A stretch of DNA of 64,000 nucleotides from Rhodococcoides kyotonense. GTDB lineage: Bacteria > Actinomycetota > Actinomycetes > Mycobacteriales > Mycobacteriaceae. The notes under the pieces were generated by a model that did not search any database, had not been told where the DNA came from, and was given only the letters and a program-made list of their open reading frames with translations. Location of the stretch: the NCBI RefSeq assembly GCF_900188125.1, contig NZ_FZOW01000002.1:372001-436000 (forward strand), read 5' to 3'. Below, one piece after another: positions 38,511 to 51,752 of this stretch (position 1 is its first letter; every line of letters starts with the position of its first letter). The position numbers and the translations under genes were made by a program.

Positions 38511-39422
38511 ATGTCTATCTTTCTGAACAAGGACAACAAGGTCATCGTCCAGGGCATCACCGGTGGCGAGGGAACCAAGCACACCGCGCTGATGCTCAAG
38601 GCAGGCACCAATGTCGTCGGTGGCGTCAACGCACGTAAGGCCGGAACCACGGTCAAGCATGTCGACGCGCAGGGCAACGACATCGAGCTTCCCGTGTTCG
38701 CTTCTGTCGCAGAGGCAATCGAGAAGACCGGCGCCGACGTCTCCATCGCGTTCGTCCCGCCGGCATTCTCCAAGGACGCCATCGTCGAGGCGATCGACGC
38801 GGAGATCCCGCTGCTCGTCGTCATCACCGAGGGCATCCCGGTGCAGGACTCCGCGTTCGCGTGGGCCTACAACGTGGAGAAGGGCAAGAAGACTCGCATC
38901 ATCGGCCCGAACTGCCCCGGCATCATCACCCCGGGTGAAGCTCTCGTCGGCATCACGCCTGCCAACATCTCCGGAACCGGCCCCATCGGCCTGGTCTCGA
39001 AGTCGGGCACGCTGACCTACCAGATGATGTTCGAGCTCCGTGACTTCGGATTCTCGACCGCCATCGGCATCGGTGGAGACCCGGTCATCGGCACGACGCA
39101 CATCGACGCCATCGAGGCGTTCGAGGCTGACCCCGAGACCAAGCTCATCGTCATGATCGGTGAGATCGGTGGCGACGCGGAAGAGCGCGCAGCCGATTAC
39201 ATCAAGGCCAACGTGACCAAGCCGGTCGTCGGCTACGTCGCAGGCTTCACCGCTCCCGAGGGCAAGACCATGGGCCACGCAGGCGCCATCGTCTCCGGCT
39301 CGCTCGGAACGGCTCAGGCGAAGAAGGACGCTCTCGAGGCCGCAGGCGTCAAGGTCGGCAAGACGCCGTCCGAGACCGCCGCACTGGCTCGCGAGATCCT
39401 GGAATCGCTGTCCGTGAAGTAA
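38511..39422 (+). CDS. sucD: Succinyl-CoA synthetase, alpha subunit
   Basis: 303 residues. The alpha subunit binds CoA (N-terminal [22 protein letters not shown]) and carries the phosphorylated histidine in [11 protein letters not shown] (about residue 254). [12 protein letters not shown] and [10 protein letters not shown]-type segments are in place. An AGAGGA run (38501-38506) precedes the ATG. It is coupled to sucC and ends at a strong terminator (39435-39473), after which the conserved gene order is interrupted by about 13.5 kb of accessory DNA before the DUF5336 gene. Confidence 0.97.
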
Positions 39423-39434
39423 GCAGTTCTTCCC

Positions 39435-39473
39435 GAAGGGGCCCGCCGGCACGCAGTGTCGGCGGGCCCCTTC
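39435..39473 (+). terminator. Rho-independent terminator of sucCD
   Basis: A stem of 14 perfect base pairs (GAAGGGGCCCGCCG with CGGCGGGCCCCTTC), extended inward by GCAC/GTGT, with a 3-base loop and then TTCGTTT. Short direct repeats of about 17 bp (CCTGGCCCGC...) follow to 39522. Confidence 0.85.
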
Positions 39474-39522
39474 TTCGTTTCCTGGCCCGCTTGCGATTCC
39501 TGGCCCGCGTACGTTCCCGGGC

Positions 39523-39577
39523 CCGCTTGAATGGACCCTGGTAGCCATCTGATCGTATGAATGCGACATTCAAGCGG
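39523..39577. repeat. 55-bp palindromic repeat, copy 1
   Basis: The ends are perfect 11-bp inverted repeats, CCGCTTGAATG and CATTCAAGCGG, around a conserved core (GACCCTGGTAGCCATCTGATC...). Two other copies lie at 47667 and 50362. Its right end runs directly into the GGAGG Shine-Dalgarno of the CdaR gene (39576-39580). Confidence 0.92.
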
Positions 39578-39588
39578 AGGTGATCGCC

Positions 39589-40659
39589 ATGCTGAGCGCG
39601 GAACTGGCACAACGAGTCGTGGATCAGGTGCGTCCCGTCGTCGCGCACAACGTCAACATCATGGATCACCGCGGCATCATCATCGCGTCGGCGGACCCGA
39701 CGCGGCTGGGTACCAGTCACGACGGTGCCATCGCCGCGCTCGAGTCTCGCGACATCGTCCGTATCGAGAGGGATCGTGAGCAGGCGAAGGCCGGAGTGAA
39801 CGTACCGCTGGTCGTCGACGGCGACGCCGTGGGTGTCGTCGGAGTCACCGGCAAGCCGTCGAGCGTCGAACCTCTTGCGCGAGTGGTGGTTCTGACCGTG
39901 ACATTGCTTCTGCGGCAGGAGCAGCAGCTCAACGATTCGCACTGGCGTGAATCCACGCTGAAGGACTTACTCAACGCGCTCATCAGTGAGCCGAGGATCG
40001 GCGAGGCGCGTGTGGGTTCCGTCCTGAGCGACGTCGGTCGTCCCAGTCAGCCCCCGTGGAGTTTGCTTGCGGCGTTCGACACCGCCGGGTCCGATGCGCC
40101 GTCGGGTCGGTTGCGTGCGAGCATCGCGGGTCTCGATCACGTGGTCGGAATAGAGCGCTCGGGTGTCACCTGGTTTCTGATCGGCCGCGCCGGAGCAGGT
40201 GTACGTGACGTCGTTCTGGATCGGCTGCAGTCCCGCCGTGCGACGGTGGTCGCTGGAAGGCGTTCTGCGACAACGCAAGAACTCGCAATCGATGCGCGAC
40301 GGCTCGACATCGTCACGCGGGCAGTGCATTTCGGTGACGGCGAGGTGCACGACATCGCCCGCTTCGATCTCGAGATCCTGCTGGGGCAGCAGGCCGACGA
40401 GCTGTCGATCGACAGTGCCTACCGTTCGCTCGAACCGCTGTCGGGCACCCTGCGACACACGGCGGCCGTCGTCCTCGATCACGATCTGTCGGTCGTCGCG
40501 TCCGCAACGGCGTTGCATGCCCACCGTAATACCGTCGTGCAGCGGTTGAATCGCATTCAATCGCTGACAGGACTCGATCTCCGAAGGTTCGACGACGCTG
40601 TCACCATGCGGATCGCGCTGACTGCGGAGTCCGTGGCGGCGCATCACGACAGTGCGTGA
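39589..40659 (+). CDS. CdaR-type (sugar-diacid regulator family) transcription factor
   Basis: 356 residues. The N-terminal ~135 residues form the putative sugar-diacid-recognition domain (MLSAELAQRVVDQVRPVVAH, NIMDHRGIIIASADPTRLGT, GVVGVTGKPSSVEPLARVV). The C-terminus is the PucR-type HTH (ALHAHRNTVVQRLNRIQSLTG). E. coli CdaR activates glucarate, galactarate and glycerate use. Here the next gene is a glycerate kinase, so it most likely controls the kinase-permease-lar genes in response to glycerate or a related acid. The ATG at 39589 is 8 bp after GGAGG, part of which comes from the 55-bp repeat. Confidence 0.88.
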   Translation: MLSAELAQRVVDQVRPVVAHNVNIMDHRGIIIASADPTRLGTSHDGAIAALESRDIVRIERDREQAKAGVNVPLVVDGDAVGVVGVTGKPSSVEPLARVVVLTVTLLLRQEQQLNDSHWRESTLKDLLNALISEPRIGEARVGSVLSDVGRPSQPPWSLLAAFDTAGSDAPSGRLRASIAGLDHVVGIERSGVTWFLIGRAGAGVRDVVLDRLQSRRATVVAGRRSATTQELAIDARRLDIVTRAVHFGDGEVHDIARFDLEILLGQQADELSIDSAYRSLEPLSGTLRHTAAVVLDHDLSVVASATALHAHRNTVVQRLNRIQSLTGLDLRRFDDAVTMRIALTAESVAAHHDSA

Positions 40660-40743
40660 CGCCCAGAAACTGGGTCAAGATTCAGTAAAACTGTGTGCGG
40701 CAGGCCTATATCTGACGGACGACCTGTGACCTAGCCTACAGAG

Positions 40744-41901
40744 ATGACGAAAAGTTACGTGGTCGTCACGGCTCCGGACTCGTTCAAGGGCACATGCACT
40801 GCCGCCGAGGCGGCTGCAGCAATGGCGGCCGGAGTTCGAGACGTCCTGGGTTCGGCGGCAACTGTGATCGAATGCCCGCTCGCGGACGGTGGCGAGGGGA
40901 CGCTCGATGCGCTGGCGGCGGGGTTGAACGCGGAGATTCGTGAAGTGGACACCGTCGACGCCATCGGACGGCCCCGCACGGCCCGCGTCGCCGTCTCCGG
41001 CGACGGCACGACCGGGGTGATCGAGGCCGCGGAAGCGAACGGACTGCCACATGTGTCCGACGTCGAATTGCAACCGATGCGCGCCGACAGCTTCGGCGTC
41101 GGGATTCTCGCGCGGAAATTGATGGACGAGGGTGTGACGGACATCCTGCTGTGCATCGGCGGGTCGGCGAGCAACGACGGTGGCACCGGTTTCGTTCGTG
41201 CGCTGGGAGTGAAGTTCCTGGACGCCGACTGTTCCGAAGTCGCTTACGGGGCACAAGGATTGAGCGATATTCGCTCGGTCGACCTGACCGGCTTGCATGA
41301 GCATGCAACCGACGTTCGGTTTCGCGTCGCCCTCGACGTCGACAATCCTTTGCTCGGAAGTCGCGGTGCTGCAGCGGTATTCGGGCCGCAGAAGGGCGCG
41401 AGCCCGGATCATGTGCAGCGCATCGACTCCGGTCTCTCGAACCTTGCGTCCGTCCTCGCCGACGCGACCGGCATCGACGCGACCGCTCTTCCCGGCGCCG
41501 GTGCGGCAGGCGGTATGCCTGCATCGCTGTCGACGGTTCTCACCACCGAATTCCTTCCAGGATCCCAACTCGTACTCGGAGCAGTCGGATTCCACGAATT
41601 GGTCGAGAATGCGGATCTCGTTCTCACAGGCGAAGGTTCGTTCGATTCACAGTCGTTGAACGGAAAGGTAGTTGCGGGAGTCGCGAGTGCGGTACCGTCC
41701 GGATGTCCGGTCGTCGTACTGGCGGGGCGCGTGCTCCTCGACCCGAAGCAGGGTCTGGACGCCGGTGTGACGGCAGCGTTCTCCATAGCATCCGGCCCGT
41801 CGACCTTGGATGAGATGAGCGGGCACACGACCGAACTGATTCGCGCCTCCGCGTCTCACATTGCATCCCTGTACGGAACCTTCTCCCGCACAGTCCGATA
41901 A
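40744..41901 (+). CDS. Glycerate kinase (GlxK/GarK family)
   Basis: 385 residues. It phosphorylates D-glycerate with ATP, giving 2- or 3-phosphoglycerate for lower glycolysis. Family motifs are the start VVVTAPDSFKGTCTAAEAAAAM, CPLADGGEGTLDAL, LLCIGGSASNDGGTGFVRALG, ALDVDNPLLGSRGAAAVFGPQKGA and TGEGSFDSQSLNGKVV. The product fits the CdaR regulator upstream (84-bp gap) and suggests that the operon delivers D-glycerate. The permease gene starts 19 bp downstream. Confidence 0.93.
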   Translation: MTKSYVVVTAPDSFKGTCTAAEAAAAMAAGVRDVLGSAATVIECPLADGGEGTLDALAAGLNAEIREVDTVDAIGRPRTARVAVSGDGTTGVIEAAEANGLPHVSDVELQPMRADSFGVGILARKLMDEGVTDILLCIGGSASNDGGTGFVRALGVKFLDADCSEVAYGAQGLSDIRSVDLTGLHEHATDVRFRVALDVDNPLLGSRGAAAVFGPQKGASPDHVQRIDSGLSNLASVLADATGIDATALPGAGAAGGMPASLSTVLTTEFLPGSQLVLGAVGFHELVENADLVLTGEGSFDSQSLNGKVVAGVASAVPSGCPVVVLAGRVLLDPKQGLDAGVTAAFSIASGPSTLDEMSGHTTELIRASASHIASLYGTFSRTVR

Positions 41902-41920
41902 AGACATCGAAAGAGATCTG

Positions 41921-43606
41921 ATGTTTCAGCAGATAACCGATCCCGTCGGTGGATCCCTGGCCTTGTCGGCCTTGATCGCCGCCGTCCCCCTTGTCACGAT
42001 GTTCGTGCTGCTCGGCGTCTTTCGCGTCAAAGCACAATATTCGGCTCTGAGCGGGCTAGCCGTGGCGCTGGTCCTGGCTGTTGCCGTGTGGGGGATGCCG
42101 ATCGGGCAGACCTTCGCCGCTGCGACGGCCGGGGTCACCTACGGGCTGACTCCCATCCTGTGGATTCTGATCACCGCCCTGTGGATCTATCGACTCAGCG
42201 CTGATACTCCGTGGTTCGAGACGTTGGGTACGACCATCCGGTCCATCTCCAACGACCTCCGAATCCTGGCCGTACTCATCGCTTTCTGCTTCGGCGCGCT
42301 GCTCGAGTCGCTCGCCGGCTTCGGTGCTCCGGTAGCCATCACAGCGGCGATGTTGATCGCGACGGGCATGAACCCGATCAAGGCAGCGGTCATCTGTCTG
42401 CTCGCCAACACCGCGCCGGTGGCGTTCGGGTCCATGGGTACTCCGATCATCGCCCTCAACGGCGTCACGGGAATCGACCTGATGGAACTGTCCAGCATGG
42501 CCGGCCGTCAGACGCCGCTCGTGGCGATCATCGTGCCGATGCTGCTCGTTCTCCTCGTCGACGGAAAGCGCGGAGTCAAGCAGACCTGGCCCGTAGCGCT
42601 CGTCGCTGGCTTCGTGTTCGGTCTCGCTCAGTTCCTGGTGTCCAACTTCATTGCAGTGGAACTGACGGACGTGCTCGCCGCCGTCGCGACGATCGTGGCA
42701 GTTCTTGCATTCCTGCGCATCTGGCAGCCGCGGGAAGTCATCTCCACGACGGAACCGACGGACGACGACCACACCCCGACCGAAGGAATCTCCGACGGCG
42801 GTGGCGTCGGATCGTCCCGTACGGCAACGGCGGTCACCGGCGCGGCAGTGGTCAAGCGTCCGCCGCTCCCACACGTTCTGATGGCGGCTGCACCGTATCT
42901 CGTTGTCATCGCGGTCTTCTCGATCGCGCAGATTCCTGCCGTCAAGTCCGCCCTCGTGGGCATCGGAAGCACGACGTTCCAGTGGCCCGGCCTCGACGTG
43001 GTCGACGCCGACGGAAATGCAGTTGCTGCGCAGAAATTCAAGTTCGATCACCTCGCAGCAACCGGGACTTTGCTGTTGCTCTCGGGCATCATCACGATGG
43101 GTATCTACAAGATCAAGCCGCTTCAGGGACTTCGTACCTTCGGCGCCACTCTCGTTCAGCTCAAGTGGACCATCGTGACCGTCACGTCGGTGCTGGCACT
43201 GTCGTTCGTGATGAACCTCTCGGGCCTGACGACGTCGCTCGGACTCGCGCTGGCCTCCACCGGTGTCTTCTTCGCCGTCCTGTCGCCGATCATCGGCTGG
43301 CTCGGTGTCGCACTGACCGGTTCCGATACGTCGTCGAACTCGTTGTTCGGTGCCATGCAGGTGACTGCAGCCGAACAGACCGGCCTGTCGGCGACGCTGA
43401 TGGCCGCGTCGAACTCCTCGGCGGGTGTCATGGGCAAGATGCTCTCGCTGCAGAACCTCGCCGTCGCGTCGGCCGCGGTGGGAGTCGCAGGGTCGGAAAG
43501 TACGCTGTTCCGCAAGCTGCTTCCGTGGAGCCTAGGATTGCTGGCAGTCATCACGGTGTTGATCGTGCTGCAGTCCACGCCGGTCCTCGGCTGGATGGTT
43601 CCTTAG
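41921..43606 (+). CDS. L-lactate permease (LctP family) hydroxyacid transporter
   Basis: 561 residues with about 13 transmembrane segments. LctP family members import L-lactate, D-lactate and glycolate with protons. Hallmarks are GALLESLAGFGAPVAITAAM, GSMGTPIIALNGVTG, TGSDTSSNSLFGAMQVTAAEQTGL and AASNSSAGVMGKMLSLQNL. A hydrophilic loop lies near residues 280-330. GAAAGAG (41909-41915) precedes the ATG at 41921; the frame is open to 41861 but overlaps the kinase gene. It likely imports the hydroxyacid that the lar-dependent racemase and the kinase act on (inference). Confidence 0.92.
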   Translation: MFQQITDPVGGSLALSALIAAVPLVTMFVLLGVFRVKAQYSALSGLAVALVLAVAVWGMPIGQTFAAATAGVTYGLTPILWILITALWIYRLSADTPWFETLGTTIRSISNDLRILAVLIAFCFGALLESLAGFGAPVAITAAMLIATGMNPIKAAVICLLANTAPVAFGSMGTPIIALNGVTGIDLMELSSMAGRQTPLVAIIVPMLLVLLVDGKRGVKQTWPVALVAGFVFGLAQFLVSNFIAVELTDVLAAVATIVAVLAFLRIWQPREVISTTEPTDDDHTPTEGISDGGGVGSSRTATAVTGAAVVKRPPLPHVLMAAAPYLVVIAVFSIAQIPAVKSALVGIGSTTFQWPGLDVVDADGNAVAAQKFKFDHLAATGTLLLLSGIITMGIYKIKPLQGLRTFGATLVQLKWTIVTVTSVLALSFVMNLSGLTTSLGLALASTGVFFAVLSPIIGWLGVALTGSDTSSNSLFGAMQVTAAEQTGLSATLMAASNSSAGVMGKMLSLQNLAVASAAVGVAGSESTLFRKLLPWSLGLLAVITVLIVLQSTPVLGWMVP

Positions 43607-43648
43607 CGATCCAGGTAGCGTCGTAGACACAGCCATCGAAAGCCCGCG

Positions 43649-43676
43649 TGGGGCAGCCTATTCCTGGGCTGCCCCA
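43649..43676 (+). terminator. Hairpin between the permease gene and larA
   Basis: A perfect 10-bp stem TGGGGCAGCC / GGCTGCCCCA with an 8-base loop and no T run. It may weaken read-through from the permease gene into larA, or mark an mRNA processing boundary. Confidence 0.55.
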
Positions 43677-43741
43677 TTCGGCCGCGGTAGGGGCGAGTTC
43701 GCCCGCCGCGTGCACCATGAACACGAGAACGAGGAGATGTG

Positions 43742-45037
43742 ATGGCCGAGTCCAGAATCCCGGTGGAACTCGCCTACGGCAGAACAGGTCTGACGGTAGA
43801 GCTGCCGGAAGACCGCACCACTGTCGTCGCGCCGACCTATCAAGCCGCTGCCGAGGATGTTCCGGCCGTTCTGCGCGAGGCGCTTGCGAAGCCCGTTGCA
43901 GGACCGCCGCTGCGTGAGGTCGTAAAACCTGGTCAGAAGATTGCGATCTCACTCTGTGACCTGACGCGACCGCAGCCGCGTGAGCTGATGGTGCGAGCGT
44001 TGCTCGCCGAGCTCGAGGGAATCTCGACGAAGGACGATTTCACGATCCTGGTGGCCACCGGTACCCATCGTGGCAACACGGATGAAGAACTTCGAATCAT
44101 GCTCGGCGACGAACTCGTCGACACCATGCGCATCATCAATCACGATGCACGCGACGACGATTCGCTGAAGTGGATGGGTACCTACGGTGACGGTGTGCCG
44201 GTGTGGCTCAACCGCCACTGGGTCGATTCCGACATCAAGATCACCACCGGTTTCGTCGAGCCGCACTTCTTCGCAGGATTCAGTGGTGGACCGAAGCTGG
44301 TAGCTCCCGGTCTCGCTGGACTCGACACCGTCCTGACGCTGCACAACGCGGCGCGGATCGGGAGCGAGAACGCGACGTGGGCTGTGTGCGAGGGCAACCC
44401 GGTGCACGACGACGTTCGAGCCATCGCGTCGGGTACCGGCGTCGACTTCGCGTTCGACGTGGTGCTCAACCGTGAGCAGAAGGTCGTCGCCGCGTTCGGT
44501 GGCGAACTGTTGACGATGCACGAGACCACTCGCGAGGTGGTTCGAGAACTGTCCATGGTGCCGGTGCCCCAGCTCTACGACGTCGTCGTGACGACGAACT
44601 CGGGATTTCCTCTCGACCAGAGCGTCTACCAGGCCGTCAAGGGAATGACCGCGGCCGCAACGGTGGTCAAACCCGGTGGACTCATCATCTGCGCTGCCGA
44701 ATGCAGCGACGGGTTCCCCGACCACGGCTCCTTCCGCGAGGTACTCGCCTCCGAGCCGACGCCGGCGGAGTTGTTGACTGCCATCTCGGCGCGCGAGAAG
44801 ACGGTGCCCGACCAGTGGCAGGTTCAGGTGCTCGCACGAGTTCTCGCGAAGGCACGTGTCGGAATGCACACCACCTACCTGTCCGACGCCGAGCTGCAGA
44901 CGGCTCATCTGTTCCTGGTCGAGGACATCGCTGCAGCGGTGGAGGAAGAACTGCTCCGCGTCGGCCCGGATGCACGTGTATGTGTCCTTCCCGAAGGCCC
45001 GCAGACGATTCCGTACCTGTCGGACGTGGCGGAGTGA
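43742..45037 (+). CDS. larA: LarA-type nickel-pincer-dependent 2-hydroxyacid racemase
   Basis: 431 residues. LarA racemises lactate with a nickel-pincer nucleotide cofactor. The signature residues all fit, shifted by one from the L. plantarum numbering: His109 (TGTHRGN), His175 and Lys185 (PHFFAGFSGGPKLVAPG, ten apart) and His201 (DTVLTLHNA). Lys185 carries the covalent cofactor. It is therefore likely active, but substrate cannot be read from these residues. LarA homologues for several other 2-hydroxyacids are known. Glycerate kinase and CdaR nearby make glycerate a candidate, and lactate remains possible. GAGGAG at 43731-43736 selects the ATG at 43742 over the GTG at 43739. Confidence 0.93.
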   Translation: MAESRIPVELAYGRTGLTVELPEDRTTVVAPTYQAAAEDVPAVLREALAKPVAGPPLREVVKPGQKIAISLCDLTRPQPRELMVRALLAELEGISTKDDFTILVATGTHRGNTDEELRIMLGDELVDTMRIINHDARDDDSLKWMGTYGDGVPVWLNRHWVDSDIKITTGFVEPHFFAGFSGGPKLVAPGLAGLDTVLTLHNAARIGSENATWAVCEGNPVHDDVRAIASGTGVDFAFDVVLNREQKVVAAFGGELLTMHETTREVVRELSMVPVPQLYDVVVTTNSGFPLDQSVYQAVKGMTAAATVVKPGGLIICAAECSDGFPDHGSFREVLASEPTPAELLTAISAREKTVPDQWQVQVLARVLAKARVGMHTTYLSDAELQTAHLFLVEDIAAAVEEELLRVGPDARVCVLPEGPQTIPYLSDVAE

Positions 45038-45849
45038 GCGCGCCCGCCGATCGGCTGCTGACCCGGTTGTCCCAGGAAACGAAGCTGTTGGTGGCATTCT
45101 CGGGAGGCGCGGACTCCGCGCTGCTCGCCATGGCAGCGCATCGTGCGCTCGGCTCCGGTGCGATCGCGGTGACTGCCGTCTCGGCCAGTTTGCCTGCGTC
45201 GGAACGCGCCTCGGCCCGCCGATTCGCACGTGAGCACGGCATCGCGCACGTCGAGGTCTGCACCGACGAACTGGACGACCCGGAGTACGTGGCCAACACC
45301 GGAAATCGGTGCTTCCACTGCAAGACTGCGCTGTTCGACGCGTTGACGCCGTTGGCGACGATGATGGGTGCGTCCATGGCGCTCGGAACCAACCTGGACG
45401 ATCTGGGTGACCACCGCCCCGGGCAGACTGCCGCGGCGCAGCGTGGTGCGATCGCCCCGATGGTCGACGCGCAACTGACCAAGGCCGACGTGCGTGCCAT
45501 CAGTGCATCGTGGGGTCTGGTGACCGCCGACAAGCCCGCGGCGGCGTGCCTGTCGTCGCGCATCGCCTACGGGGACCGGGTGACGGCCGAGGTGCTCGGG
45601 AAGATCGAGCAGGCCGAACAGGCGCTGCACGATCTGGGGTTTCGCGAGCTCCGCGTGCGTACCCATGCCGACGGCACCCTCGCCCGAGTGGAGGTCGCCG
45701 AGCGAGACATGGCTGCGGCCTTCGACTCTCGCGACGATATTCTCCGTATTCTGGATCGGGCCGGGTTCGTGTTCGGATCTCTGGACCTCCGAGGGCTTCG
45801 TAGTGGCAGCATGAACGCGCTGCTCAGTTTGACGCCGGTCGTTCGATGA
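45034..45849 (+). CDS. larE: LarE, sulfur-inserting enzyme of the nickel-pincer cofactor
   Basis: 271 residues. LarE is a PP-loop (SGGADS, 23-28) enzyme that AMPylates the cofactor precursor and inserts sulfur. Cys172 in KPAAACLSSRIAYG matches the sulfur-donating Cys176 of L. plantarum LarE. Cys93 and Cys96 (NRCFHCK) add two more conserved cysteines, the arrangement of LarE proteins that hold a [4Fe-4S] cluster and can act catalytically rather than sacrificing their own cysteine. The GTG start overlaps the larA stop by 4 bp (GTGA), so translation is coupled. Confidence 0.93.
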   Translation: MSAPADRLLTRLSQETKLLVAFSGGADSALLAMAAHRALGSGAIAVTAVSASLPASERASARRFAREHGIAHVEVCTDELDDPEYVANTGNRCFHCKTALFDALTPLATMMGASMALGTNLDDLGDHRPGQTAAAQRGAIAPMVDAQLTKADVRAISASWGLVTADKPAAACLSSRIAYGDRVTAEVLGKIEQAEQALHDLGFRELRVRTHADGTLARVEVAERDMAAAFDSRDDILRILDRAGFVFGSLDLRGLRSGSMNALLSLTPVVR

Positions 45850-46520
45850 CGCGCGAGGCCAACTACACGGTCGATCTGGATCGCGAACGCCGCCAAGGAC
45901 TTCCCGAGGTGGTGTACGGACCGGGTAAGACCGATGCCGAGATCGCGGCGATCGTGGAATCGTTGTTGGAGAACAACTCCGGGCCGGTCCTGGTGACTCG
46001 GGTATCCGCGGACACTGCTGCCGTCGTCGGCGATGCGGTGCCGGGTTCGGCGTACGACGCGCTCGGCCGCGTGCTGTTCTGGCGAAGTGCATCACCGGGC
46101 GCGTTCACGCTCGGCGTCGTCACTGCCGGCACTGCGGACGGCCCCGTGGCGGCGGAAGCCGCTGCTGTCGCATCTGCAATCGGCATGTCGGTCAAGGAAA
46201 TTCGCGACATCGGCGTAGCCGGTATCCACCGCGTGATGGCGCGTGTCGACGCGATTCGCAGTTTCGATGCCGTTGTCGTCGTCGCCGGCATGGAAGGTGC
46301 GCTGGCCAGCGTCGTCGGAGGCCTCGTTGCAGGGCCGGTGATCGCAGTACCGACATCCACCGGGTACGGCGCGGCACTCGACGGCGTCACCGCGCTGCTG
46401 GCCATGATGACATCGTGCGCAGCGGGCGTCACGGTCGTCAACATCGATTCGGGGTTCGGTGCCGCCATGGCTGCTTTCCGACTCTCCAAGTCCTTCACGA
46501 GAACCGGTTCGAACGAATGA
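45846..46520 (+). CDS. larB: LarB, carboxylase/hydrolase of the nickel-pincer cofactor pathway
   Basis: 224 residues. LarB carboxylates nicotinic acid adenine dinucleotide and hydrolyses its phosphoanhydride to begin cofactor synthesis. The PurE-like fold is seen in VVTAGTADGPVAAEAAAVAS, RDIGVAGIHRV, VVAGMEGALASVVGGLV, VIAVPTSTGYGA and GVTVVNIDSGFGAAMAAFR. The length fits the family. The start overlaps the larE stop (ATGA) and its stop overlaps the larC start (ATGA), giving a tightly coupled larA-E-B-C unit. Confidence 0.95.
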   Translation: MTREANYTVDLDRERRQGLPEVVYGPGKTDAEIAAIVESLLENNSGPVLVTRVSADTAAVVGDAVPGSAYDALGRVLFWRSASPGAFTLGVVTAGTADGPVAAEAAAVASAIGMSVKEIRDIGVAGIHRVMARVDAIRSFDAVVVVAGMEGALASVVGGLVAGPVIAVPTSTGYGAALDGVTALLAMMTSCAAGVTVVNIDSGFGAAMAAFRLSKSFTRTGSNE

Positions 46521-47674
46521 TTCTGTGGCTCAACCCGATCGCGGGTGTCTCCGGTGACATGATGCTCGGTGCGCTGCTCGATCTGGGTGCGCCGATCGAC
46601 AAGGTCAGGGCAGCGATCGAATCGACCGGTATCACGGGATGGAGTGTGACCACAGAGTCGGTCGAGAGGCAAGGTGTTCGCGCAACACACGCCGTCGTGA
46701 CTGTCGACGAGCACGTGCCCGCGCGGCACGCGTCGGAATTGCTCGAGATGGCGGCACGAGCTGTGCCCGAGGAGGTTTCGGACTTCGCTGTGCGCGCGAT
46801 CCGATCCTTGGCCGAGACCGAGGCGAAGATTCACGACTCCACGGTCGAAGAAGTGCACCTGCACGAGTTGGGTGGCGTCGACACGATCGTCGACACCGTC
46901 GGAGTGGCAGCAGCTTTGGAAGCTTTGGGCGTCACCGCCGTGTACTCGGGGCCAGTAGGGCTGGGGATCGGTCAGACGCACGCGGCGCACGGTCTGTTGC
47001 CGGTGCCCGCGCCCGCGACGCTCGGGTTGTTGCGTGGTGCACGGGTGGTCGGCGTCGACACCGATACCGAGACGGTGACCCCGACGGGCGCTGCATTGCT
47101 GGCGACGTCCGGGGCTCGGTACGACCCGGTGCCGGCGATGACGATGCACTCGGTGGGATACGGCGCAGGTGGTCGAGACACCCCGGGACGGCCCAATGAT
47201 CTGACGGCAGTGCTGGGAACCCCTGTGTCGCAAACGGATCCGGTCGAGGCGATGGTCGTGCTCGAGACCAACCTCGACGACGTCACCGGAGAGGTCCTGG
47301 GTGAACTGATCCCTAGGCTTCTCGAGGCAGGCGCTGCCGACGCGTGGATCTCGCCGGCGATCGGTAAGAAGGGTCGGCCGATGCATACGGTGTCCGCCCT
47401 GTGCGCCCGGCACGTAGCGGGCAGCGTCGAGGAGCGACTGGTGGCCGAGACCGGAACCCTCGGCGTCCGGCGCACCATCGTCGACCGCCGAACCCTGCCG
47501 CGCCGATGGACCGACGTGGAGATCGAGGGCATGACCGTCCGCGTCAAGATCGGTCCTCACCGGGCGAAGCCTGAGCACGACGATCTCCACCGGGTATCCG
47601 AGGCGACAGGAATCCCCGTCCGCGAACTGGCCGAGCGGGTGGCGGGGGTTGTTGCGTCCCGGCCGTCCGCTTGA
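46517..47674 (+). CDS. larC: LarC, nickel insertase of the nickel-pincer cofactor pathway
   Basis: 385 residues. LarC inserts Ni using CTP. The domains are uninterrupted here, whereas in L. plantarum the protein is split by a programmed frameshift. The N-terminal AGVSGDMMLGALLDLG, HLHELGGVDTIVDTVG and THAAHGLLPVPAPAT, and the C-terminal ETNLDDVTGEVLGEL and GKKGRPMHTVSALC, are family hallmarks. It completes the cofactor pathway after LarB and LarE. The last codon and the stop are supplied by the 55-bp repeat (47667-47721), and a diverged copy of its last ~20 codons lies at 50304-50369. Confidence 0.95.
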   Translation: MILWLNPIAGVSGDMMLGALLDLGAPIDKVRAAIESTGITGWSVTTESVERQGVRATHAVVTVDEHVPARHASELLEMAARAVPEEVSDFAVRAIRSLAETEAKIHDSTVEEVHLHELGGVDTIVDTVGVAAALEALGVTAVYSGPVGLGIGQTHAAHGLLPVPAPATLGLLRGARVVGVDTDTETVTPTGAALLATSGARYDPVPAMTMHSVGYGAGGRDTPGRPNDLTAVLGTPVSQTDPVEAMVVLETNLDDVTGEVLGELIPRLLEAGAADAWISPAIGKKGRPMHTVSALCARHVAGSVEERLVAETGTLGVRRTIVDRRTLPRRWTDVEIEGMTVRVKIGPHRAKPEHDDLHRVSEATGIPVRELAERVAGVVASRPSA

Positions 47675-47721
47675 ATGGACCCTGGTAGCTATCTGGTCGT
47701 ATGAATGTGACATTCAAGCGG
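47667..47721. repeat. 55-bp palindromic repeat, copy 2
   Basis: Same element as at 39523, with intact 11-bp inverted ends. The larC stop TGA lies at bases 6-8 of the element. It is in direct orientation with copy 3 at 50362; the two copies flank the exported trio. Confidence 0.92.
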
Positions 47722-47728
47722 TCGGAGG

Positions 47729-48553
47729 TCAGTAGACCGAGTGCGTCAGGGTCGCACGGTAGGTGTCGGCGATGACGTTGGTGGACGGAATGCCGATGGA
47801 CACCGTCGAGGTCCAGCTCGTGAGGCACAGCGCACCACCACTTTTCGCCAAGACTGGTGTGCTCGTCAACGCGACGCTGGCGGCAGGGGAGGTCCCGGCG
47901 ACACCGAGAGTGCAGACGGAACTCGGCGCGGAATAGGTCGCCGAGGTCGGTGTGATGACTCGTCCGGTCGTGTTGCCGCGGATGGCGGACAAGCTGACGT
48001 TCGACTTCCAGCCTCCTGTGCCTACGCCCAGGACGTTCATGCTCATCGTCCCGGTCCACGTCGTGCCGGGAGTGATCGTCGCCGGACCCGTCATCGCCGA
48101 TGGGACGACGATATCCAGCAGATCCGCTGCTGCCGCAACAGGAGCCGCGGCTCGAACTGCAGGCGTCGGACTTGGCACGGTCGGAACAGGGGTCGTCGGA
48201 GCCGGCAGTGTCGAAACTGGGACTGTCGGGACCTGAGAGGTCGTCGTGGCGGCGGGAACCGCTGTCGTCGGCACTGCGGTCGTCGGTGCTGCTGTGGTCG
48301 GCGGTGTTGTCGACGGTACGGCGGTTGTCGGCACCGCGGTCGTCGGAACTGCTGCTGTAGAGGGGCTTTCGGTGGCGACAGGCTCGCACGGTATCGGTGG
48401 GTCCGTCGTCTCGATGACGGGCGTCGGAACCGGTGTGGTCGTCGTGACCACGTCGACACAGCCCACTCCCGCCGCCGGCTGGGCGGCGGCGAGAGGGGAC
48501 AGTGCCGTGGTGAGCATGACCGTCAGGACCACGGCGGTGGCGAAAGACTTCAC
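47729..48553 (-). CDS. Exported Pro/Thr-rich protein with a WxL-like C-terminal domain
   Basis: 274 residues. A signal peptide (1-24, cut near AAA-QPAAG) is followed by a long Thr/Pro/Val linker (about 36-135) and a beta-rich domain (about 140-274). The domain has GGWKSNVS (Trp182) and ends YRATLTHSVY. Its last 28 residues align with those of the protein encoded at 49564 (shared WT-x2-V...P...A-x2-Y-x2-T-x-THSV). In Firmicute WxL proteins the corresponding end is a W-x-L repeat; here THSV stands in that place. Four cysteines may form two disulfides. The GTG start is 1 bp after the stop of the DUF916-like gene. Probably a cell-surface protein; function unknown. Confidence 0.7.
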   Translation of the reverse strand: MKSFATAVVLTVMLTTALSPLAAAQPAAGVGCVDVVTTTTPVPTPVIETTDPPIPCEPVATESPSTAAVPTTAVPTTAVPSTTPPTTAAPTTAVPTTAVPAATTTSQVPTVPVSTLPAPTTPVPTVPSPTPAVRAAAPVAAAADLLDIVVPSAMTGPATITPGTTWTGTMSMNVLGVGTGGWKSNVSLSAIRGNTTGRVITPTSATYSAPSSVCTLGVAGTSPAASVALTSTPVLAKSGGALCLTSWTSTVSIGIPSTNVIADTYRATLTHSVY

Positions 48554-48554
48554 G

Positions 48555-49556
48555 TCAGTTTGCCTTTCGTCGCCGAACTGCCAGCACAGCCCCGGCTACG
48601 AGTGCGACGACGACCACTGCAACCACGATCCACAGCCAGGACGGGATGCCGTCGGAGGAGGTCGCAGCGGCCGAACCTTGTTCGGGGAACGTCAGATCCA
48701 CGGTCGTCGACTTGTTCACCAGACCGCTGGCGACCGACACGGCCGCCTGCCACGGGCCCGCGGGTAGTGCCGAGTCCAGTGCGAAGGTGATCTCGCCCGA
48801 TTGCCCGGGAGCAATGGATCCGCCGGATCCTTGCGTGGGGGCCGTCGAGATTCCGCCAGGCCCATCGGACAGGGTGATCGTGCCGCTGGGGTCGAGCGCT
48901 CTACCGCCGGTATTCGAGATGGACGCAACGACGGTCGGTGCACCATCGGCGTTGCGTGCGGCAGTGACTCCGTCGATCTCTAGGTCGGCCGGGGGTCCGT
49001 TTCCCGGTCCGACCGACAGGTAGGTCCTGATCCCGACGCGGCTGACGTTCTGAATACCCGTGGCATTCGGCGCGCCTGCTGTTTGGGCCCACACGACGGC
49101 GTACTGCTCACCTTCCGGTGCGTCGGCGGGCACGGCGATCGTCACGACGGCCTCGGCGGCGGCATTCGGCGCGAGGCTGACGTCGGTCGGCTCCACTGTC
49201 ATCCAGGTGGTCAGTTCGTTGGCGGTGCGGTCCTCGGCCACTTCGAAGCCGTCACCCCCGTCGGCGATCGAGGCGGCAGCAGGGTACAGGGAGATCGCCT
49301 GCTCCTGATCGCTGCTGTTGCTGACCTCGATACGACGGGTGATCGTCGTTCCTGGTGGCAGGTTGTCGATGATGTACGCCAGTGCCCGTGGGTCGTCCTG
49401 CAGCGACACAGGAGCTTCCAGAAGCCGGATCCCGACGCTTCCGACGGGCACTGGGGCAGTTGGTTCTTGTGCGGCTGCCGGAGCCTGGCCGACGATCGCC
49501 GAAGCGAACGTCAGCAGAGCCAGGACTCCGGCCGCCAATCCCCGATCGAGTGACAT
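48555..49556 (-). CDS. DUF916-like (WxL-interacting-type) membrane-anchored surface protein
   Basis: 333 residues. A signal peptide (1-29) leads to an Ig-like DUF916-type domain (about 40-190: PPGTTITRRIEVSNSSDQEQ, LAPNAAAEAVVTIAVPADAP, EGEQYAVVWAQ), then a second beta domain (about 195-295), one transmembrane helix and a basic tail (about 304-333, ends RRRKAN). In Firmicutes, DUF916 proteins bind WxL proteins and peptidoglycan. Here a membrane helix replaces the cell-wall sorting signal. It lies between two WxL-like genes on the same strand, with gaps of 1 and 7 bp. The likely role is to hold the two exported partners at the surface (inference). Confidence 0.75.
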   Translation of the reverse strand: MSLDRGLAAGVLALLTFASAIVGQAPAAAQEPTAPVPVGSVGIRLLEAPVSLQDDPRALAYIIDNLPPGTTITRRIEVSNSSDQEQAISLYPAAASIADGGDGFEVAEDRTANELTTWMTVEPTDVSLAPNAAAEAVVTIAVPADAPEGEQYAVVWAQTAGAPNATGIQNVSRVGIRTYLSVGPGNGPPADLEIDGVTAARNADGAPTVVASISNTGGRALDPSGTITLSDGPGGISTAPTQGSGGSIAPGQSGEITFALDSALPAGPWQAAVSVASGLVNKSTTVDLTFPEQGSAAATSSDGIPSWLWIVVAVVVVALVAGAVLAVRRRKAN

Positions 49557-49563
49557 GTGCGGA

Positions 49564-50079
49564 TCAAGCCACCGAATGCGTGATGGTTCCGGTGTACACA
49601 CCTGCGACGACGTCGTTCGGAAGCGTGACGGTGACGTTGCCCGTCCAAGTTGCGGTGTTCGCGCCGACGACTGCGGTGGCGACCTGAACACTCTTGGTGG
49701 TGTCGAGCACGACCGGCAACAACGACGGCGTGACGATCGCGACGCCCGTGACTGCTGGGAGCGAACCTTGGTAGGTCACTGCGGTTGCCGGAATCGAGGC
49801 CGGATCGGGCGCGGGCTTGGTGAATGCCGTGCTGACAGCGGATGCCGTCCAGCCGTTGATTCCTCGGCGCTGGTCCGAGACGACGACGGGTGTGATGCCG
49901 CCTGTCGCCTGGTTCCCGGTCACGGTGAGGGTCTGGTTTGCGGGCGCGGTGATGTTGAGGGCGCCGCCGGCAACGGTGAAGGTCACGACAGTGTCGGCCG
50001 CGTTGGACACTGCCGGTGCAACGACTGCTGCAGCGAGTGCGCCGGCAACTGCGAATGTTGCGAGGAGGGATGTGCGCAT
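49564..50079 (-). CDS. Small exported WxL-like protein
   Basis: 171 residues. It has a signal peptide (1-28, SNAAD cleavage) followed by a beta-rich domain with NGWTASAVSTAF (Trp77) and the C-terminal end VYTGTITHSVA. The overall pattern 'Thr-rich strand, GW-x-(S/A)-x-V-S, final T-x-THSV' is that of WxL surface domains with the second W-x-L replaced. AAGGA lies 9 bp before the ATG. It is the first gene of the trio; the promoter must be in the 50080-50300 spacer. Similarity to the larger WxL-like protein suggests paralogues binding the same DUF916 partner. Confidence 0.72.
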   Translation of the reverse strand: MRTSLLATFAVAGALAAAVVAPAVSNAADTVVTFTVAGGALNITAPANQTLTVTGNQATGGITPVVVSDQRRGINGWTASAVSTAFTKPAPDPASIPATAVTYQGSLPAVTGVAIVTPSLLPVVLDTTKSVQVATAVVGANTATWTGNVTVTLPNDVVAGVYTGTITHSVA

Positions 50080-50303
50080 TGGACGTCCTTGGTGAAAGGC
50101 GGGAGACCCACCGGTATGTGGTTTGCGTCACTTAAATCGGCGCATGTTGTGCAACGTTACGGTGCAAAACGAAGTTTCTCGAGATAAGTCACAAAAATGG
50201 TTTGGAGCTCGAAAACACGCACGCGGTAGGTCTGCTGATGCCCGTATTCGCAGGTGAACGGTCTGTATTCGGCTCTTGTTCGTAGTCGACAACCCGGTGG
50301 GTG
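50080..50303. other. Promoter region of the exported trio; no gene seen
   Basis: The spacer upstream of the trio contains a small palindrome GTTGTGCAAC (near 50147) and an imperfect CRP-type half-match at 50116-50131. No coding frame was recognised. From 50304 onward it becomes the larC-tail remnant. Confidence 0.5.
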
Positions 50304-50369
50304 ACCGGAACACCCGTCCGCGACCTGGCCGAGCGGGTGGCGGCGTTGGTCGGCAACCCGGGCGCTTGA
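50304..50369 (+). pseudogene. Duplicated 3' end of larC
   Basis: Reading from 50304 gives TGTPVRDLAERVAALVGNPG, then Ala and stop, against TGIPVRELAERV plus 12 further residues at the real larC end. About 21 codons are kept, and the following 55-bp repeat is also kept. No start or upstream part of larC is present. It is a remnant, marking the right border of the DNA that holds the exported trio. Confidence 0.85.
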
Positions 50370-50416
50370 ATGGACCCGGGTAGCTATCTGACCGTATGAA
50401 TGTGACATTCAAGCGG
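50362..50416. repeat. 55-bp palindromic repeat, copy 3
   Basis: Same element as copies 1 and 2; the first base of the left inverted end is changed (GCGCTTGAATG). It follows the larC-tail remnant exactly as copy 2 follows the real larC. Confidence 0.92.
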
Positions 50417-50428
50417 TCGGGGAACCGT

Positions 50429-50455
50429 GGACCGTGAAGCCCAACTTCACGGTCC
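50429..50455. terminator. Terminator-like hairpin
   Basis: A perfect 10-bp stem GGACCGTGAA / TTCACGGTCC with a 7-base loop, without a T run, 74 bp before the next gene. It could originally have ended the lar transcript before the trio was inserted. Confidence 0.5.
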
Positions 50456-50528
50456 CTGAAGAATCGTCTCAAAATCACGCTGAACGCAACTGTGTTCATT
50501 ACTCCGCGTAACAGTTTCACTGGCTCGC

Positions 50529-51752
50529 ATGACAACAACCGAGAATCGAGCGTTGACCAAGGATTGGCCGGACACACCGACGTCCCCCGACGGCTGGATA
50601 TCGCGGGCGGGGGAGGTGGCGCAGCTGCTCGCGGTCGATGCCGTCGCTCGTGACAAGGGCGATGCCCCGCCGGTCGACGAGGTTCAGCTTCTGAAGGATT
50701 CGGGCCTCGTGACACTGTTGGGACCCGTCGAACACGGCGGTGGCGGACAGGACTGGCCGACGGCGTACCAGGTGATCCGCCGCGTCGCCGCTGCCGATGG
50801 GTCGATCGGCCAGCTGCTCGGCTACCACCTGCTGTGGTTCTGGGCTGCGCGTCTCGTCGGGACCCCCGAGCAGATCGAGGCCGTGGAAGCCGACGCCACG
50901 TCGAACAAGTGGTTCTTCGGCGGTGCGGTCAATCCGCGGGACAGTGACGTCGTCGTCACCGACGAGGGTGACACGATCGTCTTCGAGGGTGCCAAGACCT
51001 TCTCGACAGGCAGCCGGGTTTCCGACGTCACCGTGCTCGAAGGGGCACTGAGTGGGAGTGACGCGCACGTGTTCGCGATCGTCCCGTCGAACATCGAGGG
51101 CCTGACGTTCCACGACGACTGGGACAATATCGGCCAGCGTCGAACGGAAAGTGGCAGTGTCACGATCGACAAGGTTCGCGTCGACTGGTCGAGCGCAGCG
51201 GGCTTCGTGGACAAGCAGTTTCAGCCGCGGGTCTACAACACACTCAACGTGCCGACCATCCAATTGGTGTTCGTCAACTTCTACCTCGGTATCGCGAGGG
51301 GTGCGCTCGAAGAGGCCGCCGCGTACACCAAGGACAAGACGCGGGCATGGTTGCACAGCACTGTGGACAAGGCCGTCGACGAGCCGTACATCATCGACAT
51401 CTACGGTGACCTGACATCCAAGCTCTGGGCCGTCGAAGCGCTTGCGGACGCAGTTGCGTTGGAAGCGAACGAGATCCACGAGGACGCCTGGAATGTGACG
51501 CCGGAGCAGCGAGGTGACCACGAGGTCCGCGTCGCCGCTGTGAAGGCGCGTGCGTCGGAAGTGGCGCTCGAGATCACGTCGACGGTGTTCGAAGCTCTCG
51601 GGGCGCGGGCGACGGCGAGCAAGTTCGGCTTCGATCGCTTCTGGCGCAACGTTCGTACGCACACGTTGCACGATCCCGTCGCCTACAAGCGGCGCGAGGT
51701 GGGTCGCTGGGTCCTGACCGGCGAGTTGCCCGAGCCGACCTGGTATTCGTAA
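50529..51752 (+). CDS. Acyl-CoA-dehydrogenase-fold flavin monooxygenase (DszC/SfnC-like)
   Basis: 407 residues with the acyl-CoA dehydrogenase fold of the DszC/SfnC group, which uses reduced FMN to oxidise sulfur compounds. Segments are GPVEHGGGGQDWPTAYQVIRR, WFFGGAVNPRD, FEGAKTFSTGSRVSD, DDWDNIGQRRTESGSVTIDKV and the C-terminal FWRNVRTHTLHDPVAYKRREVG (typical of DszC-like enzymes). The start ATG has no Shine-Dalgarno. With sfnG next, it most likely takes part in use of dimethyl sulfide, sulfone or sulfonates as sulfur source. The flavin reductase partner is not in this window. Confidence 0.85.
   Translation: MTTTENRALTKDWPDTPTSPDGWISRAGEVAQLLAVDAVARDKGDAPPVDEVQLLKDSGLVTLLGPVEHGGGGQDWPTAYQVIRRVAAADGSIGQLLGYHLLWFWAARLVGTPEQIEAVEADATSNKWFFGGAVNPRDSDVVVTDEGDTIVFEGAKTFSTGSRVSDVTVLEGALSGSDAHVFAIVPSNIEGLTFHDDWDNIGQRRTESGSVTIDKVRVDWSSAAGFVDKQFQPRVYNTLNVPTIQLVFVNFYLGIARGALEEAAAYTKDKTRAWLHSTVDKAVDEPYIIDIYGDLTSKLWAVEALADAVALEANEIHEDAWNVTPEQRGDHEVRVAAVKARASEVALEITSTVFEALGARATASKFGFDRFWRNVRTHTLHDPVAYKRREVGRWVLTGELPEPTWYS

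Follow-up and report, generated by a model that had tools for sequence, protein, structure and literature searches.

The enterobacterial gar/gud regulon (CdaR, GarK) shares the combination of a CdaR-type regulator and a class I glycerate kinase with the locus considered here, a seven-gene cassette at 39589..47674 in a 64,000-nucleotide stretch of Rhodococcoides kyotonense DNA (contig NZ_FZOW01000002.1, positions 372,001 to 436,000 of the forward strand; this whole stretch is called the window below), and to our knowledge no racemase is part of that regulon. The regulon differs from the cassette in that D-glycerate is there made from sugar diacids (PMC11077982). With the lar operon of Lactiplantibacillus plantarum and its racemase LarA1 (PDB 5HUQ, 6C1W), the cassette shares the LarA family, the catalytic and cofactor residues and the cofactor genes larB, larC and larE, but the LarA of the window is about a third identical to LarA1 and has Gln in place of Thr359, and the cassette lacks larD while adding a glycerate kinase, a CdaR-type regulator and an LctP-family permease. 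A third relative, LarAH43 of Enterocloster asparagiformis, is an assayed enzyme of the LAR group having glycerate as its best substrate and shares the Phe, Phe, Trp, Gln pocket of the window LarA; that LarA enzymes racemise glycerate in vitro has already been shown in that work (PMC11770544).

The initial annotation of the window, made from the sequence alone, knew of no described lar cluster with CdaR and glycerate kinase, but precedents for lar genes with a glycerate kinase do exist in sequence records. Two alphaproteobacterial plasmids, RHOApc of Rhodovastum atsumiense and pRlX3 of Rhizobium ruizarguesonis, likewise carry a complete lar set with a glycerate kinase on one strand and a Gln-type LarA (Gln at the position of LarA1 Thr359), differing from the cassette in gene order and in having a Phe, Met, Trp, Gln pocket. 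In open-licence papers, supplements excluded, we found neither the term 'glycerate racemase' nor 'lactate racemase' together with 'glycerate kinase', and LarA, glycerate kinase, nickel and racemase never occurred together.

From its gene content and residues, we consider the cassette to be probably an uptake-and-use unit for glycerate, in which a nickel-dependent LarA would feed the glycerate kinase. The LctP-family permease would import glycerate, and LarB, LarE and LarC would make the nickel-pincer (NPN) cofactor that loads LarA. LarA would then interconvert L- and D-glycerate by handing the alpha-carbon hydride to the cofactor and taking it back on the opposite face, as in the known mechanism of the family, whereupon the kinase would convert D-glycerate to 2- or 3-phosphoglycerate, entering glycolysis or gluconeogenesis. 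The CdaR-type regulator would induce the genes upon sensing glycerate. Substrate, direction of flow, transport and inducer are the parts of this model that we infer.

Gene content and unity of the cassette

Seven co-directional genes on the + strand fill 39589-47674 and every reading frame is intact, confirming the initially reported complete lar operon with regulator, kinase and permease. The first gene (39589..40659, 356 aa) encodes a regulator predicted to respond to sugar diacids or glycerate, with a Diacid_rec domain (Pfam, 1.5e-38) and a PucR-type C-terminal helix-turn-helix (HTH_30, 4e-16). This domain architecture bears out its earlier naming as CdaR, but the protein reaches 123 bits against the 612-bit cut-off of the CdaR equivalog NF008550 and is therefore CdaR-type and not CdaR proper, with a glycerate inducer being presumed. 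Enterobacterial CdaR senses D-glycerate (PMC11077982), and the CdaR proteins of Salmonella and E. coli respond to glycerate besides glucarate and galactarate (PMC11077982, PMC4551912). The second gene (40744..41901, 385 aa) encodes a class I glycerate kinase of full length, matching PF02595 (Gly_kinase, 8.8e-120) at residues 7-376 and TIGR00045 (373 bits) at residues 7-377. It is the sole PF02595 match in its own genome, as is its counterpart in the one congener having the same cassette (genome G160). The third (41921..43606, 561 aa) encodes a putative 2-hydroxyacid permease, which is of the LctP family (Lactate_perm, 4.9e-137; TIGR00795) and reaches the NCBIfam equivalog cut-off neither for L-lactate permease nor for glycolate permease.

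The lar genes follow, with larA (43742..45037, 431 aa; Lar_N and LarA_C in Pfam, NF033504 in NCBIfam) encoding a predicted NPN-dependent 2-hydroxyacid racemase. The set for the cofactor is complete, each gene being intact and over its curated cut-off: larE, a sacrificial sulfur transferase gene with a GTG start (45034..45849; TIGR00268, 1.6e-87, 293 against a cut-off of 150), larB for biosynthesis of the nickel-pincer cofactor (45846..46520; NF033503, 3.3e-77, 259 against 175) and larC for nickel insertion (46517..47674; Ni_insertion, 7.6e-116), with LarC1 (TIGR00299, 168 against 90) and LarC2 (NF052512, 121 against 50) in one frame. Overlaps of 4 bases are found at larA/larE, larE/larB and larB/larC. 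Neither a flavin adenine dinucleotide (FAD) oxidase nor an Etf gene is present in the cassette, as judged from gene content and a Pfam scan.

LarA over its cut-off was found in 2 of 121 genomes of the family, namely in the genome of the window and in G160, where sucD is followed by these seven genes in unchanged order and then by a gene for a DszC-like oxidoreductase; such conservation of genes, order and site argues that the gene order is not due to chance. None of the seven genes was found by tblastn near sucD in six other congeners. Of these, three (loci L217, L218 and L219) have the DszC-like gene directly after sucD, G626 (L214) has two small genes in between, G669 (L216) has about 5 kb unannotated together with one small gene in between, and in G681 (L215) the small genes and the DszC-like gene were not found in the 16 kb at sucD. 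The seven genes hence behave as one unit, all-or-none at this site in eight genomes of the genus, and since all seven come or go together, the regulator and the kinase belong with the lar genes and are not old neighbours of the site.

The LarA pocket and its gene neighbours across bacteria

The LarA of the window scores 544 bits with NF033504, over the curated cut-off of 460, and lies under the NCBIfam cut-offs for the malate, LarAH10, LarAH14/15/16 and hexonate LarA families. The four signature residues initially reported, His109, His175, Lys185 and His201, have exactly these positions in ATG-start numbering; together with R76 they align with R75, H108, H174, K184 and H200 of LarA1, so that the two catalytic His, the cofactor Lys, the nickel His and the substrate Arg are all present. 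The pocket residues F176, F177, W359 and Q360 correspond to LarA1 F175, F176, W358 and T359, at which lactate racemases usually have Phe, Phe, Trp and either Glu or Gln (PMC11770544). At the last of these positions, Q359 of LarAH43 has been tied to its preference for glycerate (kcat/KM of 114e3 with glycerate versus 83e3 with lactate), while LarA1 with Thr and LarAH51 with Glu prefer lactate about ten-fold or more (PMC11770544).

For analysis of this residue in relation to gene neighbours, we compiled 160 LarA rows: the window itself, 81 from the 80 best genome-contig loci, 20 actinobacterial rows from the order and phylum to which the window belongs, 45 from Bacillota and 13 from Enterocloster. 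The best genome-contig loci are centred on Bacillota, since the search profile was started from a clostridial LarA, and the paralogue L056_1 was dropped. A random draw of 299 Bacillota genomes gave 42 of the 44 listed places over the cut-off, 2 being already in the set, together with 3 places below it; one more place, which passes only together with its neighbours, was left aside. The Enterocloster rows, a sample chosen after the pattern had been seen, comprise 13 of 14 places over the cut-off, the other (L108) being already in the set. Neighbours were scored within 7 kb by tblastn, with identities from Pfam scans of cluster representatives, and the linkage counts are lower bounds because of loci cut by contig ends and the few tblastn queries. 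At GC-rich actinobacterial loci, open reading frame calling gave shadow frames, for which a caller based on GC at third codon positions was partly better, and neighbours there are mostly those given by the tblastn queries.

Two rows lack the pocket residue, leaving 158 that could be scored, with 80 Gln-type and 78 others. A class I glycerate kinase was found near 11 of the 80 Gln-type loci and near none of the 78 others (Fisher 7e-4), whereas an FAD oxidase, EtfA, EtfB or LctP was near 6 of 80 Gln-type and 34 of 78 other loci (Fisher 1e-7), both Fisher values ignoring relatedness and pooling samples chosen in different ways. Two of those 6 Gln-type loci are the window and G160, having LctP together with the kinase. 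When DUF1537 and MOFRL kinases were counted along with class I, the figures became 17/80 and 1/78. After dereplication at 90%, the Gln-type loci compared with the others as 8/72 to 0/73 for class I kinase, 12/72 to 1/73 for any kinase and 5/72 to 31/73 for lactate-oxidation genes or LctP. Apart from the window, class I kinases with Gln-type LarA were contributed by the genome-contig loci (5/30) and Enterocloster (3/11), with the actinobacterial sample treated below. At L109 and L118, which are clostridial loci of Oscillospiraceae, larA, a CdaR-like gene and a glycerate kinase gene stand in a row.

A second sugar-acid context for LarA is formed by loci with DUF1537 kinases (PF07005/PF17042), found near 10 of the 80 Gln-type larA genes, and KdgT permeases, found near 9 of them. 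Gln-type larA lies near both at L228, L229 and L230 of Enterocloster and at L079, L084, L098, L101 and L184. The three Enterocloster loci, where DUF1537 kinase, larA, glycerate kinase and KdgT genes stand in a row, and L101 also have a class I glycerate kinase. A further Enterocloster locus, L231, is cut by a contig end.

Plasmid records, searched for LarA after the pattern had been seen, gave 17 matches, of which ten were opened and scored; one of these ten, from Rubrobacter, had already entered the earlier set as L153. On RHOApc, the order is sigma-54 regulator, KdgT, larA, larC, larE, larB and class I glycerate kinase (PF02595), and on pRlX3 it is larA, larC, larE, larB and then a class II (MOFRL) glycerate kinase, with no permease of the sought kinds beside it. 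Both LarAs score under the NF033504 cut-off. Glycerate kinases of classes I and II are unrelated (PMC2063504), so that finding either class behind lar genes argues for function and not for descent of one pair. A Tepidibacter locus has GntR, LctP, larA and Etf genes with a Glu-type LarA, and a Lacticaseibacillus locus has a classical lar operon including larD with a Thr-type LarA. Five loci of Rhizobium and Phyllobacterium plasmids (L249, L250, L255, L256 and L257) have a complete lar set and a Gln-type LarA with the Phe, Met, Trp, Gln pocket; their larA adjoins a gene for a dehydrogenase resembling 3-hydroxyisobutyrate and tartronate-semialdehyde reductases.

In a first tree of 105 rows, made by a quick method with support by the Shimodaira–Hasegawa-like approximate likelihood ratio test (SH-aLRT) only, the window LarA falls in a 17-row actinobacterial Gln-type clade (SH-aLRT 99), with LarA1 and the 2yjg protein lying outside it. 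Grouping with proven lactate racemases, initially named among outcomes that would count against glycerate, was not seen with regard to LarA1, but the clade holds no assayed enzyme, and the outgroup, LarAIp, sits on a long branch and is an enzyme that prefers lactate. Linkage to a class I kinase needs 6 changes on this tree. When all rows were included and the residue column was masked, the numbers of changes required were 15 for the Gln state, 9 for class I kinase, 12 for any kinase and 19 for lactate genes. Independent pairs gave, for kinase with Gln, about 2 contrasts in the same direction and 0 opposite (median sign-test p 0.5) and, for lactate genes against Gln, about 4 opposite and 0 the same (median sign-test p 0.125).

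The glycerate racemase feeding a kinase, as first suggested for this locus, is supported by the unit behaviour of the genes, the sole PF02595 kinase, the LarAH43-type Gln and the recurrent pairing elsewhere. A wider proposal, which we put forward tentatively and at somewhat less than even chances, is that nickel-dependent use of glycerate is naturally widespread. Cassettes of Gln-type LarA with a kinase for glycerate or another sugar acid, with that kinase swapped for an unrelated one in some lineages, would then have arisen repeatedly in Actinomycetota, Bacillota and Pseudomonadota, Gln versus Glu or Thr at the T359 position would largely separate kinase-linked from lactate-linked LarAs, and many 'lactate racemases' would physiologically be glycerate racemases.

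Evidence against the glycerate model and alternative substrates

Several observations weigh against the glycerate model or its extension to other bacteria. NCBIfam names the window LarA a lactate racemase, with a score above the cut-off, and the permease belongs to a family named for lactate (lactate/glycolate), whose members otherwise accompany Glu-type LarAs (16/53). The Gln is by itself not decisive for glycerate, because LarAIp has Gln357 and yet prefers lactate and 2-hydroxybutyrate over glycerate (PMC11851776); its pocket is Leu, Met, Trp, Gln, with Leu and Met where the window LarA has two Phe (PMC11851776). With regard to LarAH43, the window LarA has the same pocket including the Gln at the T359 position, but the two are not close kin. 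Locus L226 probably encodes LarAH43, having Gln at 359, while the other LAR over the cut-off in the same genome has Cys at 357; among places over the cut-off, none of the other 16 of the 17 Enterocloster genomes combines both types. The window LarA is about 36% identical to the L226 protein, and no glycerate kinase lies within about 9 kb of L226, which rules out a kinase beside the LarAH43 gene at the locus that fits it.

The linkage pattern is also uneven. A class I kinase was found at only 2 of 17 Gln-type loci of the actinobacterial sample, and in the random Bacillota draw at 0 of 21, with any sought kinase at 1 of 21 and lactate-oxidation genes at 3 of 21. At the five rhizobial plasmid loci no kinase of the sought families is present in the stretch, and a GlcD-like FAD oxidase lies 6-7 kb away; since this is within the 7-kb rule of the survey, these loci would count against the pattern. 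A rule that Gln means glycerate kinase is consequently too strong, with 63 of 80 Gln-type loci having none of the three kinase families within 7 kb and with the Bacillota draw and the rhizobial loci contradicting it further. Nor is the residue rule absolute in the other direction, because L187 pairs a class II (MOFRL) glycerate kinase with a Cys-type LarA. Although the independent contrasts all point the same way, their number is too small for us to claim phylogenetically corrected significance.

The metabolic setting is likewise of limited help. No glyoxylate carboligase over the cut-off was found in the genome of the window (G000) or in G160 (best 386 and 381 bits against 711), and the cassette-less G626 has such an enzyme (1124 bits) encoded directly beside a glycerate kinase gene. 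This absence is shared by 7 of 8 genomes of the genus and is hence not peculiar to bearers of the cassette, which weakens it from a special argument to mild support; five genomes having neither carboligase nor cassette still have a PF02595 match.

Among other readings, LarA could be a generalist racemase of short-chain 2-hydroxyacids that serves both lactate and glycerate, besides 2-hydroxybutyrate, and from which the kinase would draw off the glycerate branch only. The promiscuity of the assayed LAR-group enzymes, with LarAH43 nearly equal on lactate and glycerate (PMC11770544), fits with this, as does the pairing of LctP with a glycerate kinase in the cassette, but both the CdaR-type regulation and a cassette without lactate dehydrogenase genes speak for a single main substrate, and we regard a true generalist as unlikely. 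Under the glycerate model, too, some activity of the window LarA on lactate would be expected, because the LAR-group enzymes assayed act on both lactate and glycerate (PMC11770544).

Similarly improbable, in our judgement, is an ordinary lactate racemase, where LctP would import lactate, LarA would interconvert the two lactate enantiomers for lactate dehydrogenases encoded elsewhere, and the kinase and CdaR-type genes would be passengers. The NF033504 match, the LctP neighbour otherwise typical of Glu-type LarAs and the activity on lactate of the LARs assayed in PMC11770544 all agree with such a function. Against it stand the Gln, instead of Glu or Thr, at the T359 position, the cassette being devoid of FAD oxidase and Etf genes, the kinase and regulator travelling with the lar genes as a unit, and the recurrence of the kinase–lar pairing elsewhere. 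That the substrate would be another polar short acid (tetronate or 2,4-dihydroxybutyrate), phosphorylated by an enzyme of the glycerate kinase family, is very improbable even given the DUF1537 and KdgT genes near several Gln-type larA genes and the weak epimerisation of 4-deoxytetronates by LARs (PMC11770544), for the window kinase is of PF02595/TIGR00045 and LarAH43 was hundreds of times better with glycerate than with 2,4-dihydroxybutyrate or 4-deoxytetronates (PMC11770544).

Flanking elements and implications

The cassette has sucCD as its 5' neighbour, followed by a terminator-like hairpin (39435-39473). In plasmid-collection records the best matches to sucCD are from Tsukamurella (86%) and Nocardia (84%), as fits an actinobacterium of the Mycobacteriales. 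On its 3' side are three − strand frames, secreted-protein-like as judged by eye, and the DszC-like oxidoreductase gene, whose product scores under the DszC cut-off; the one of the three frames that was scanned gave no family over the cut-off in Pfam or NCBIfam. An intergenic repeat of 47 bp, the ends of which are inverted (TTGAATG...CATTCAA), is found on the + strand just 5' of the regulator gene (39527..39573), at the other end of the cassette with the larC stop codon inside it (47671..47717) and once more at 50366..50412. Allowing up to 3 mismatches, it has 12 copies in its own genome and none in seven congeners, and the seven copies examined outside the window stand at or near frame ends. 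Beside the third copy lies a degraded stretch that copies the 3' end of larC (50300..50350, + strand, 84% over 51 bp), which suggests a duplication or a lost second larC, and the repeat may have been involved in rearranging the DNA near the cassette. In L214 (G626), an apparent relative of the repeat, diverged and inverted, was seen by eye after sucD (2590-2660).

Between lctP and larA there is a strong hairpin (43650..43675, + strand; −32 kcal/mol, z −4.1), with a similar one seen by eye in the sister genome (L138). It may be an attenuator or a processing site, or may split the operon. Searches with Rfam up to E = 1 revealed no nickel riboswitch or other known RNA in 39300-50600, and no sigma-70-type promoters were found in 39380-48000.

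The chemistry itself is known in vitro; new here are the natural setting that we propose, the fact that it recurs in three phyla, where the kinases are exchangeable, and the contrast seen at the pocket residue. The racemase–kinase pairings in unrelated bacteria suggest a role in nature for an activity measured until now in vitro, and the cassette gives a concrete and testable role for LarA and a candidate pathway by which bacteria might use L-glycerate. The residue at the T359 position is, finally, a marker that could help in re-annotating proteins now called lactate racemases.

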